Shown: in pieces, positions 18,466 to 23,561 of the stretch
Numbering within the stretch: position 1 is the first letter of the stretch
Layout of the letters: the number at the start of each line of letters is the position of its first letter
Source: Clostridiales bacterium
GTDB lineage: Bacteria > Bacillota > Clostridia > Christensenellales > Aristaeellaceae
Direction of reading: 5' to 3'
NCBI GenBank assembly: GCA_015056415.1
Contig: SVGJ01000021.1
Location: 1-36,961 of the forward strand
Length of the DNA stretch: 36,961 nt
The notes under the pieces: generated by a model
What the model saw: the letters and a program-made list of their open reading frames with translations, nothing else
The model's database searches: none
What the model was told of the DNA's origin: nothing
Made by a program: the position numbers and the translations under genes

Positions 18466-19545
18466 ATGGAAAAGAAAGGTTATCTCCTCCTGGAGGACGG
18501 CACCCTGTACGAGGGCGTTCTCCGGGGCGCGCAGAAGGATGCTGCCGCTGAACTGGTGTTCCTCACCTCTGTGGTGGGCTACATGGATACCCTGACTGAT
18601 CCCGGCTATGAAGGTCAGATCGTTGTGCAGACCTTCCCGGCTATCGGCAACTACGGTGTGATCCCGCTGGAGAACGCCAGCGCTCCCAGGCTTGCCGGCT
18701 ATGTGGTGCGCGAATTGTGCGACGAGCCCAGCAACTTCCGCTGCCAGGGCAAGCTGGATGATTACCTGCGTGATAACGGCGTTACCTGCCTGACCGATGT
18801 GGACACCCGCGCCATTTCCCGCCGCCTGCGCGATAACGGTGTGATGAAGGCAGCGATCCTGTGCGAGAAGCCCGAGGATATCCAGGCCGCCATCGCCAGC
18901 CTCAAGGTCAATGCCGCGAAGGCCTTCCCCAAGGGTTGCGAAGAGTTTATCCCCGCTGCCAATGAGGGCAAGTACAGCGTGGCCCTGTGGGACTTTGGCG
19001 CCAAGGGCAGCCTGCAGGCCGAGCTGGAGGCCCGCGGCTGCGCCGTGACCTGCGTGCCTGCCGATGCTACTGCCGATATGATCGCCGAGCTTCAGCCCGA
19101 TGGCGTGGTCATCACCAATGGCGCAGGCGATCCTGCTGAGTGCGTCAATGCCGTGAACGAGCTGCGTGAGCTGTGCCACAAGCGCATCCCCACCATGGGT
19201 ATCGGCCTGGGCCATCAGCTGCTTGCGCTGAGCCAGAACGGCGGTACCGTGAAGCTGCCCTATGGACACCGCGGCGGCAACCAGCCCGTTAAGGATCTGC
19301 GCACCGGCATGAATTACATCACCAGCCAGAACCATGGTTATGCCGTGGATAATGACAACCTGCCCGACAATGCCACCCTGCGCTTTATCAACTGCAACGA
19401 TGGTACCTGCGAGGGTCTTGACTACAGCGATATGCCCGCCTTCTCGGTGCAGTTCATGCCCCAGATCAGCGGCGGTCCGCTGGATACCCGGTTCCTGTTT
19501 GAACGGTTCATTGCACTGATGGGAGGGAATAAGGAATGCCGCTGA
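18466..19545 (+). CDS. carA: carbamoyl-phosphate synthase small subunit with inactivated glutaminase triad
   Basis: 359 aa, full length. The N-terminal domain (about 1-140: LTDPGYEGQIV, GNYGV, DTRAISRRLRDNGV) and the class I amidotransferase domain (about 170-355) are both present. Normally CarA releases ammonia from glutamine with a Cys-His-Glu triad. Here the nucleophile motif GxCLGHQ reads GIGLGHQ (Gly247, codon GGC at 19204), and the distal HPE reads MPQ (Met331 at 19456, Gln333 at 19462). The surrounding motifs GHRGGNQPV and TSQNHGYAV are intact, and codon use looks like that of its neighbours. The subunit is thus predicted to be structural or regulatory and unable to hydrolyse glutamine. 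The gene overlaps carB by 10 bases. Confidence 0.95.
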   Translation: MEKKGYLLLEDGTLYEGVLRGAQKDAAAELVFLTSVVGYMDTLTDPGYEGQIVVQTFPAIGNYGVIPLENASAPRLAGYVVRELCDEPSNFRCQGKLDDYLRDNGVTCLTDVDTRAISRRLRDNGVMKAAILCEKPEDIQAAIASLKVNAAKAFPKGCEEFIPAANEGKYSVALWDFGAKGSLQAELEARGCAVTCVPADATADMIAELQPDGVVITNGAGDPAECVNAVNELRELCHKRIPTMGIGLGHQLLALSQNGGTVKLPYGHRGGNQPVKDLRTGMNYITSQNHGYAVDNDNLPDNATLRFINCNDGTCEGLDYSDMPAFSVQFMPQISGGPLDTRFLFERFIALMGGNKECR

Positions 19546-22500: not shown

Positions 22501-23561
22501 TGCTTTCCATGGGCCAGGTGCAGTATGTGATCTCCACCTCCAAGAAGGGCCGTAACCCGCTGCTGGATTCTGTGCGTATGCGCCGCAAGGCGGTTGAGCG
22601 CGGCATTCCGCTGTTCACCAGCCTGGATACTGCAAACGCCCTGGCGCAGGCCCTGACCAGCCGTTACAGCCTGCAGAACGTGGAGACCGTTGACATCAAC
22701 AATATGCGCACTAAGCGCGAGAAGCTCCGCTTTGTGAAAATGCGCGGCACCGGCAACGATTTCCTCTACTTCGATTGCTTCGAGCAGAAGGTGGAAAGCC
22801 CCGAATCCCTGGCTGTCCGCCTGGCTGACCGCCGCAAGAGCGTTGGCTGCGATGGCATCGTGATGATCCTGCCCAGCACCAAGGCGGACGCCAAGATGCG
22901 TATGTTCAATGCCGATGGCTCCGAAGGCGCCGTTTCCGGCAATGCCATGCGCTGCGTAGCCAAGTACCTGTATGAGTCCGGCCGTGTGCAGAAGGATAAG
23001 ATGACCCTGGAGACCGGCAGCGGTGTGAAGACTGCCGACCTGTTCATCCGTGAGGACGAGGTCTTCTCCGTGCAGGTGGATATGGGTAAGCCTGCCTTCG
23101 AGCCCGTCAAGGTGCCTGTGAAGCTGGATGGCGATAAGGTCATGAACCGTCAAGTGTTCATTGCCGGCGAGAAGCGCGCCATCTCCTGTGTAAGCATGGG
23201 CAACCCCCATGTGGTGATGTTTGTGCCTGACGTGGAGCGGATCGACCTGGCCAGCGTCGGCCCGGAGATCGAGAAGGATCCGCTGTTCCCGCAGCGCGTG
23301 AACGTATCCTTTGCTCAGGTGATCGACCGCAGCATGCTGAAGATGCGCGTGTGGGAGCGCGGCATCGGTGAGACGGCTGCCTGCGGTACCGGCGCCTGCG
23401 CTGTGGCTGTTGCTGCTGTGGAGAACGGCCTGTGCAACCGTGATGCTGACATCGACGTGCAGCTTCCCGGCGGCACGCTGGTCGTCCGCTATGAGAAGGA
23501 AGGCCAGGTGTGGCTTACCGGCGATGCTGTGACCGACTTCGAAGGCACGATCGAAATCTAA
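19536..23561 (+). CDS. carB: carbamoyl-phosphate synthase large subunit fused to a DapF-like domain
   Basis: 1341 aa in one open frame. Residues 1 to ~1056 are a complete CarB: two ATP-grasp halves (GSGPIVIGQAAEFDYAG near 14; GSGPIRIGQGIEFDYAS near 555) and the C-terminal MGS-like allosteric domain (from ~933, FNLFATPGTAKTL). Residues ~1057-1341 are a full-length diaminopimelate-epimerase fold: LRFVKMRGTGNDF, NADGSEGAVSGNAMRC, and WERGIGETAACGTGACA. DapF normally uses two cysteines; the first is Ser1134 here (codon TCC at 22935) while the second, Cys1283, is kept. No ribosome site precedes the internal ATG at 22704, so separate translation is unlikely. GGGAGG at 19521-19526 serves ATG 19536. 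A terminator follows the stop. Confidence 0.94.
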   Translation: MPLNPELRKVMIIGSGPIVIGQAAEFDYAGSQACKALKAAGLEVVLVNPNPATIMTDHSSADQIYIEPLTLETLRRIIIKEKPDSLLSTLGGQSGLTLSMQLAKEGFLEQHGVKLLGAKCETIEKAEDRLLFKQTMESINQPCIPSDVVETLEDALTLAEKIGYPVIVRPAFTMGGEGGGICKDEAELREIAANGLRLSPITQILVEKCISGWKEIEFEVMRDAKGNVVAVCSMENIDPVGVHTGDSIVVAPALTLSNTEYQMLRRAALDMVSALEVEGGCNCQFALNPDSFEYAVIEVNPRVSRSSALASKATGYPIAKIASMIAIGYTLDEIPNAMTGKPLAGFEPTVDYIVAKVPKWPFDKFVYGKRTLGTQMKATGEVMSIGVSVEQALMKAVRGAEIGCDTMRLKAMAELSTEELIDLIGMCTDQRMFAVYEAMGRGVSLEQLHEITKIDMFFLHKFKNLLDMERRLEQGSVDGDVYMKAKRMGYPDKAIERLSGEKVPFHRDPVYKMVDTCAAEFPAQKPYFYATYDDENEAEQFINKKDKKPCVVVLGSGPIRIGQGIEFDYASVHCVWMLKKAGYDVVMINNNPETVSTDFDTADRLYFEPLTPEDVMGIIATEKPVGVVAAFGGQTAIKLTRTLQEAGVRIMGTSADMIDAAEDRERFDAAMEKNGIKRPQGTTVMTTDEALKAANELGYPVLVRPSYVLGGQNMIIAYQDSDIVEYMKIILAQGIKNPILIDQYLMGVEAEADAICDGEDVLIPGIMEHVERSGVHSGDSIAVYPAWNLTGAMVQRLVEVTRLIALELGTVGLINIQYIVYHNEVYVIEANPRASRTVPYISKVTGVPMVDLAVRAMLGEKIKDMGFGTGLYRQSPYFAVKVPCFSFEKLADVDTHLGPEMKSTGEVLGLGTNLQEAIYKGLVAAGYKMRHQGGLLVSVRDVDKTEVVDVVRRFAQLGFNLFATPGTAKTLLEHGLYAATVKNEAMERMLSMGQVQYVISTSKKGRNPLLDSVRMRRKAVERGIPLFTSLDTANALAQALTSRYSLQNVETVDINNMRTKREKLRFVKMRGTGNDFLYFDCFEQKVESPESLAVRLADRRKSVGCDGIVMILPSTKADAKMRMFNADGSEGAVSGNAMRCVAKYLYESGRVQKDKMTLETGSGVKTADLFIREDEVFSVQVDMGKPAFEPVKVPVKLDGDKVMNRQVFIAGEKRAISCVSMGNPHVVMFVPDVERIDLASVGPEIEKDPLFPQRVNVSFAQVIDRSMLKMRVWERGIGETAACGTGACAVAVAAVENGLCNRDADIDVQLPGGTLVVRYEKEGQVWLTGDAVTDFEGTIEI

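Follow-up and report, generated by a model that had tools for sequence, protein, structure and literature searches.

The window analysed in this study is a 36,961-nucleotide stretch of DNA from a Clostridiales bacterium (GenBank assembly GCA_015056415.1, contig SVGJ01000021.1). It carries a gene (19536-23561, plus strand) in which a complete CarB, the large subunit of carbamoyl-phosphate synthase (CPS), is followed by a complete domain of the diaminopimelate (DAP) epimerase DapF in a single stop-free frame of 1341 amino acids. Based on the comparison of this gene with its relatives in other genomes, we consider it fairly probable that an old bifunctional fusion became, in the lineage of the window, a CPS with a pseudoenzyme regulatory domain in which the DAP pocket was kept. 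The fused domain of the window does not have both catalytic cysteines of a DAP epimerase, as it has a serine (Ser1134) at the position of Cys73 of the Escherichia coli DapF and a cysteine (Cys1283) at that of Cys217. All of the residues that we take to line the DAP-binding pocket and that were checked in the window, N11, N64, N75, N157, N190, E208 and R209, are present. PddB is a racemase that is related to DapF, is independent of pyridoxal phosphate (PLP) and uses two thiols; because its Cys to Ser mutant keeps less than 0.1% of the activity, and the same is cited by its authors for Mt-DapF in the excerpt of that report used here (PMC8225329), DapF catalysis is very probably gone in the window protein.

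Catalytic cysteines and pocket of the fused domains

Fused domains that have both Cys73 and Cys217 (E. coli numbering) are called intact here and all of the others degenerate. Among 136 fused domains, position 73 was occupied by Cys in 54, Ala in 44, Ser in 19 and Gly in 19, while position 217 was Cys in 129, Ser in six and cut off in one. Accordingly, 53 of 135 domains were intact and 82 were degenerate, 81 of the latter through Ala, Ser or Gly at Cys73; the domain that was cut before Cys217 (L016) stands outside the 135 and was counted as degenerate among the 132 genomes compared below. Stand-alone DapFs had a cysteine at both positions in 52 of 52 cases. Among the residues of the pocket, the 82 degenerate domains retained N11 in 74, N64 in 82, N75 in 80, N157 in 78, H159 in 81, N190 in 73, E208 in 78, R209 in 72 (with Lys in a further eight) and G218 in 82, and Cys217 was retained in 76. 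Since the pocket residues persist in 72-82 of the 82 domains, the loss appears from the alignment to be centred on Cys73 and not spread across the pocket. The CarB tree shows a minimum of 12 switches between the intact and the degenerate state, a count that is blind to gain versus loss; because all of the stand-alone DapFs have Cys73, its loss is the presumed direction of change. The cause of the asymmetry between Cys73 and Cys217 is not explained by the reading that we favour.

Distribution and origin of the fusion

The earlier note on this DNA had regarded separate carB and dapF genes in all of the close relatives, together with a frameshift at the junction, as fatal to its claim of a fusion, and the genus does not show such a separation. 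A search of its 18 genomes revealed the complete fusion in one frame in 14; in two of the others (G016 and G017) the fused domain was cut by a contig end, one (G012) had a CarB fragment only and one (G014) had no CarB match. A separate DapF was also found in 17 of the 18. In other genomes, 597 matches were confirmed, of which the best 80, picked by match length, were kept; these loci are thus no measure of prevalence. CarB and DapF shared one stop-free frame in all 80. Record titles among these best 80 of 597 included Ruminococcus, Oscillospiraceae, Peptococcaceae, Gracilibacteraceae, Treponema and Chitinispirillia and, because they span Ruminococcus to Treponema and Chitinispirillia, the fusion is either very old or has moved between phyla. 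In a sample of the order, a DapF match lay in a frame of at least 950 amino acids in 41 of 151 genomes, and CarB was confirmed in 41 of 41; in a sample of the phylum, at least 15 of 299 genomes had a DapF-matching frame of more than 1300 amino acids, as judged by frame length only. The CarB-DapF fusion occurs in many gut and rumen Clostridia. Three genomes (G197, G210 and G229) had two long DapF-matching frames each, as though they carried two fused genes.

The CarB tree had 128 rows (173 before near-identical ones were collapsed) and was built using a quick method with support from the Shimodaira-Hasegawa-like approximate likelihood ratio test (SH-aLRT) only, and the DapF tree had 173 rows (189 before collapsing). 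For the unfused CarBs, 50 surrounding stretches out of a longer list were fetched. In the CarB tree, 79 fused rows grouped with a single unfused one in a fully supported clade, which a further unfused CarB (L215) adjoined; the DapF tree required at least two label changes for the fused domains. A single origin of the fusion fits both trees, and the two genes were most likely joined once. The lone unfused row within the fused clade (L236, G114 C21) has a CarB that ends in DINNMRH, and no remainder of DapF was found downstream, which reads as a clean loss of the domain. This CarB is followed by an apparent terminator hairpin and offers a natural control for removal of the domain. Additionally, a separate DapF with both cysteines (L179, G050 C1:1401897-1402724) nests among the fused DapFs with a support of 91, and the fused copy of the same genome has lost Cys73; L179 may have arisen as a copy released from the fusion.

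Other DapF or DAP dehydrogenase genes in the same genomes

The genome comparison covered 132 distinct genomes, from which duplicates (G157, G067 and G010), a partial locus (L020 of G016) and two loci that hold no DapF (L017 and L018) were left out; G023, which has only DapF fragments beside the fused gene, was scored as having the fused domain as its sole DapF. The fused domain was intact and sole in 45 genomes, intact with a separate DapF in seven, degenerate and sole in 21 and degenerate with a separate DapF in 59 (Fisher 7.6e-12, with descent ignored). An intact fused domain alongside a separate DapF therefore occurs too, in seven of 52 genomes. In the order sample, among genomes with a completeness of at least 90%, the corresponding numbers were 15, 0, 1 and 15. 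Where no other DapF was found, an intact fused domain should, judging by its residues, be the DAP epimerase of the cell. The genome of the window (84% complete) has one CarB match and a second, separate DapF (L031, C31:6778-7608), which is 50% identical to the fused domain and has both catalytic cysteines.

DAP dehydrogenase (Ddh) yields meso-DAP without an epimerase. It was searched for in 80 genomes, which were 79 of the 132 distinct ones and the duplicate G010, with the seven intact-with-separate genomes lying outside. A separate DapF or Ddh was present in 72 of 79 degenerate vs 20 of 38 intact genomes, counting those where this was known. DapB was found in 35 of 38 genomes and not in G099, G168 and G243.

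Gene neighbourhood

The genomic context was counted for 88 distinct loci with flanks (52 degenerate and 36 intact, with the duplicates L248 and L250 left out), whose flank lengths vary, which makes absences soft. The argF, dapL, argD, argJ and argB genes were identified on one representative each, and the other neighbours by reading the sequences. Arginine genes lay near 31 of 52 degenerate and none of the 36 intact loci. Conversely, a dapL gene on the same strand was near 17 of 36 intact vs 0 of 52 degenerate loci and pyrG near 14 vs 0, while glutamine synthetase, an ANTAR-like regulator or purF was found near 19 intact and four degenerate loci. Upstream of the window fusion there are only argF and carA; argJ, argB and argD are absent from the window. 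The suggestion of the earlier note that the fusion links nitrogen supply to the lysine and peptidoglycan branch fits the intact relatives, with their dapL and glutamine synthetase neighbours, but not the copy in the window. The note did not mention Ser1134, the second DapF of the genome or the position of the gene behind argF-carA.

The CarB part and its regulatory site

The lists of catalytic and uridine/inosine monophosphate (UMP/IMP) site residues used here are those that we take to be correct for the E. coli CarB. At R129, R169, E215, H243, Q285, E299, N301, R715, E761, Q829, E841 and N843, the window is identical to the E. coli protein, and these 12 catalytic positions were unchanged across 121 fused rows, save for one gap at Q285. 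Positions 210, 754, 756, 785 and 787, which are near the CarB sites, vary in fused and unfused proteins alike. At the UMP/IMP site, the window keeps K954, T974 and T977, has Asn in place of K993 and has Ser in place of N1015 and T1017, as in most of the intact fusions. Lys954 of the MGS domain was present in 41 of 41 intact vs 57 of 80 degenerate fusions, and Lys993 in 40 of 41 vs 26 of 80 (with Arg in a further 21 degenerate ones). Because these two lysines are often replaced, the regulation by UMP may be weaker in the degenerate group. The residues of the E. coli ornithine site were uninformative as a clue, since E892 was found in 0 of 121 fused and two of 51 unfused CarBs and D1041 was absent in both.

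Proposed role of the fused domain and competing explanations

In the scenario that we propose, DapF was joined, most likely once, to the end of CarB that bears the MGS allosteric domain. In the intact relatives, the chain would be bifunctional, with CPS and DAP epimerase activity, and the joining may serve dosage or a common control with dapL and the nitrogen genes; we know of no intermediate that is common to the two enzymes. In other relatives, Cys73 would have given way to Ala, Ser or Gly, mostly in genomes with a separate DapF or Ddh and often beside arginine genes. The domain of the window would no longer epimerise DAP. It would owe its retention either to a ligand that it continues to bind, which could be DAP or a similar diamino acid (for example ornithine), or to its packing against MGS, and would in this way tune or stabilise the CPS adjoining argF. 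Our preferred reading, which draws on the conservation of the pocket and agrees with a possibility raised in the earlier note, is that the degenerate domain possibly binds a regulatory amino acid next to MGS. An AlphaFold2 model of the MGS and DapF part of the window protein, built with 61 sequences, had a mean predicted local confidence (pLDDT) of 92.2, a predicted TM-score (pTM) of 0.82 and no stretch below 50, which suggests that DapF may have a fairly fixed position relative to MGS. The top matches of the DapF domain in the PDB were DapF structures; among the 50 matches listed, the DapF chains had TM-scores by target length of 0.71-0.91.

CPS supplies both the arginine and the pyrimidine pathways and is a textbook allosteric enzyme. 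The boldest reading is that of a silenced DAP epimerase that serves as an allosteric module, senses DAP or ornithine, sets the activity of a CPS encoded beside arginine genes in Clostridia and replaces a partly worn UMP site. It is suggested by a pocket that has lost its first base but is otherwise preserved and that adjoins the allosteric domain of a CPS encoded beside argF, and we regard it as a tentative possibility. If a silenced domain does sense a cell-wall and lysine precursor, the supply of carbamoyl phosphate would be tied to peptidoglycan synthesis, and the living relatives would form a natural series from a bifunctional enzyme to an enzyme plus sensor. More soberly, the domain could be a scaffold or a remnant that is gradually being lost. 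That the same catalytic residue changed repeatedly while the domain stayed in place, with at least 12 changes of state, makes the choice between an enzyme turned sensor and a remnant testable. For annotation, degenerate fusions may automatically be credited with epimerase activity, as the window passes the DapF cut-off, and the sole DapF of a genome may be missed where it is fused to CarB.

Several observations weigh against a retained regulatory domain. The ratios of nonsynonymous to synonymous substitution rates (dN/dS) were taken from pairs with a dS of 0.2-1.2 and a domain identity of 72-98.5%. The median was 0.20 for the degenerate fused domain (152 pairs) and 0.133 for CarB in these pairs, and it was 0.131 for the separate DapF (51 pairs) and 0.057 for the intact fused DapF (only 10 pairs). 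These values show purifying selection on the degenerate domain, which speaks for its retention, but with a constraint that is looser than on the separate DapF and CarB. The domain was lost in one lineage (L236), and such losses are under-counted since the named loci were chosen by match length and only some of the unfused CarBs were fetched. In paired comparisons on the tree, on average 2.3 of eight pairs agreed with the association between degeneration and a second DapF, 0.2 opposed it and 5.5 showed no difference, which was not significant. Ddh was only mildly enriched, being present in 13 of 20 degenerate and sole, 13 of 31 intact and sole and 11 of 28 degenerate and separate genomes. Finally, seven of the 20 tested degenerate and sole genomes lack a Ddh match, four of them titled Treponema, and all seven have DapB; these exceptions may reflect residual activity in some degenerate domains, another epimerase or incomplete assemblies. 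A rule that a degenerate domain is always accompanied by a backup was rejected on these seven genomes, and the idea that the Treponema genomes are without the DAP pathway was not supported, given DapB in seven of seven exceptions. The Treponema-titled loci L064, L069, L087 and L105 combine an Ala73 fusion and DapB with no other DapF or Ddh found, which leaves their epimerase step unaccounted for.

The same looser constraint, the clean loss in L236 and the redundancy that accompanies decay across the genomes would also suit a catalytically idle remnant, made redundant by a second DapF or Ddh and now decaying, that stays because the end of CarB requires a folded partner or because clean loss is rare. 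We regard this as unlikely, as the fused clade of 80 rows contained only a single loss (subject to the under-counting noted above), and plain decay would not give an asymmetry in which 81 of 82 domains have lost Cys73 while the pocket and Cys217 are mostly kept. It is more improbable still that the Ser, Ala or Gly domains remain catalytic, either by epimerising DAP slowly or by using Cys217 as the single base for different chemistry on DAP, ornithine or a similar compound. The persistence of Cys217, the seven exceptional genomes and the existence of same-fold relatives with other substrates, such as the O-ureidoserine racemase 7vdy, speak for it. Against it stand the activity of less than 0.1% cited above for PddB and Mt-DapF, a separate DapF in 59 of 80 degenerate cases and the inability of Ala and Gly to act as an acid or base.

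A single chain

That the gene yields a genuine single-chain CarB-DapF protein is supported by the many independent assemblies and by the missing internal ribosome site; the calculated mass of this protein is 147.0 kDa. The uninterrupted frame that the earlier note described was borne out by both curated matches and by these assemblies, and the internal ATG at 22704, which is the in-frame Met1057, indeed has no strong ribosome site before it. The estimate of about eight residues for the linker was also close, the gap between the match ends being 10-19 residues with a median of 12 (134 fused frames). In an alignment of 61 fusions, five of 24 junction columns were conserved at 90% or more vs 95 of 412 over the whole C-terminal stretch, so the junction equals the rest of that stretch in conservation.

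That one frame yields two proteins, by internal initiation at Met1057 or by cleavage, is very improbable. Of the 119 fused genes in which the CarB part is long, three had a strong Shine-Dalgarno sequence before an in-frame start near the junction, the gene of the window not being one of them, compared with 86 that had one before carB; this is a soft test, as the separate dapF genes had one in only 24 of 52 cases. Internal initiation was rejected on this near-absence (116 of 119 without). Moreover, the AlphaFold2 model presents the junction as ordered, with its ten-residue blocks at pLDDT 79-94. An assembly artefact or a missed frameshift that fused two neighbouring genes, for which a TAA does lie out of frame at 22712-22714 as had been pointed out, has a practically negligible probability, because the identical one-frame junction recurs in 14 of the 18 genus genomes and in all 80 of the loci kept from elsewhere (the best 80 of 597), which excludes chance or misassembly as its source.

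Features of the window

The coordinates of the fused gene, its parts and its upstream neighbours are listed in Table 1. A GDSL-type esterase/acylhydrolase gene (23566-24264) lies immediately 3' of the fusion. An antisense frame of 1411 amino acids (19422-23657, minus strand) spans the entire fusion and is most probably just a by-product of codon bias. The frames at 24284-26563, 27203-28402 and 34374-35828 (759, 399 and 484 amino acids) had no Pfam match at 1e-5.

Table 1. Parts of the carB-dapF gene and its upstream neighbours in the window.
Feature	Coordinates	Strand	Evidence
argF, ornithine carbamoyltransferase, upstream neighbour	17533..18450	+	TIGR00658, 425 bits, cut-off 280.85
carA, CPS small subunit; 3' end overlaps carB start	18466..19545	+	TIGR01368, 361.3 bits, cut-off 307.35
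CarB part, residues 1-1040; two ATP-grasp halves and MGS domain	19536..22655	+	TIGR01369 at 5-1040, 1393.5 bits, cut-off 1027 (NCBIfam); MGS = PF02142 at 946-1028
Junction, residues 1041-1064 (TSRYSLQNVETVDINNMRTKREKL)	22656..22727	+	
DapF domain, residues 1065-1341	22728..23558	+	TIGR00652 at 1065-1339, 277.9 bits, cut-off 114.65 (NCBIfam)
Ser1134 (TCC), aligns with catalytic Cys73 of E. coli DapF	22935..22937	+	Alignment
Cys1283, aligns with catalytic Cys217 of E. coli DapF; retained	23382..23384	+	Alignment

Comparison with known systems

The excerpt of PMC9026213 used here concerns a different, PLP-dependent DapF2 and does not mention the fusion. Among the papers listed from an open-access library, no title or beginning of an abstract described a CarB-DapF fusion, with subscription papers and protein databases lying outside the search; automated domain databases may well list this architecture already. 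Among solved structures, none of the 20 sequences listed spans both CarB and DapF. In CPS1 and CAD-type fusions, the partner of CPS is a glutaminase part or pyrimidine enzymes. The human CPS1 (5dot) is thus similar to the window protein in that CPS is fused to other parts, but it has no amino-acid epimerase as a partner. With CarB (TIGR01369; E. coli 1bxr), the window protein shares all of the domain order, the adjoining carA and the residues at the 12 catalytic positions compared, and it differs in its C-terminal DapF and in Lys993 of the UMP site, which is Asn in the window. With DapF (TIGR00652; 2otn, 4ijz and 1gqz), it shares the fold, length, pocket residues and Cys217, and the intact relatives share both cysteines; it differs in being joined to CarB and in having Ser at the position of Cys73. 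PddB and the O-ureidoserine racemase 7vdy have the same fold as DapF but stand alone, and the window domain scored higher against most of the DapF structures than against 7vdy. The closest precedent for the proposed role is the E. coli RppH-DapF complex (6d13), in which, according to the excerpt of the report used here (PMC4227774), a DapF with C73A/C217A still binds and stimulates RppH. As proposed for the window, a partner enzyme is regulated there without DapF catalysis, although that association is non-covalent, involves another partner and has a DapF that is normally active.

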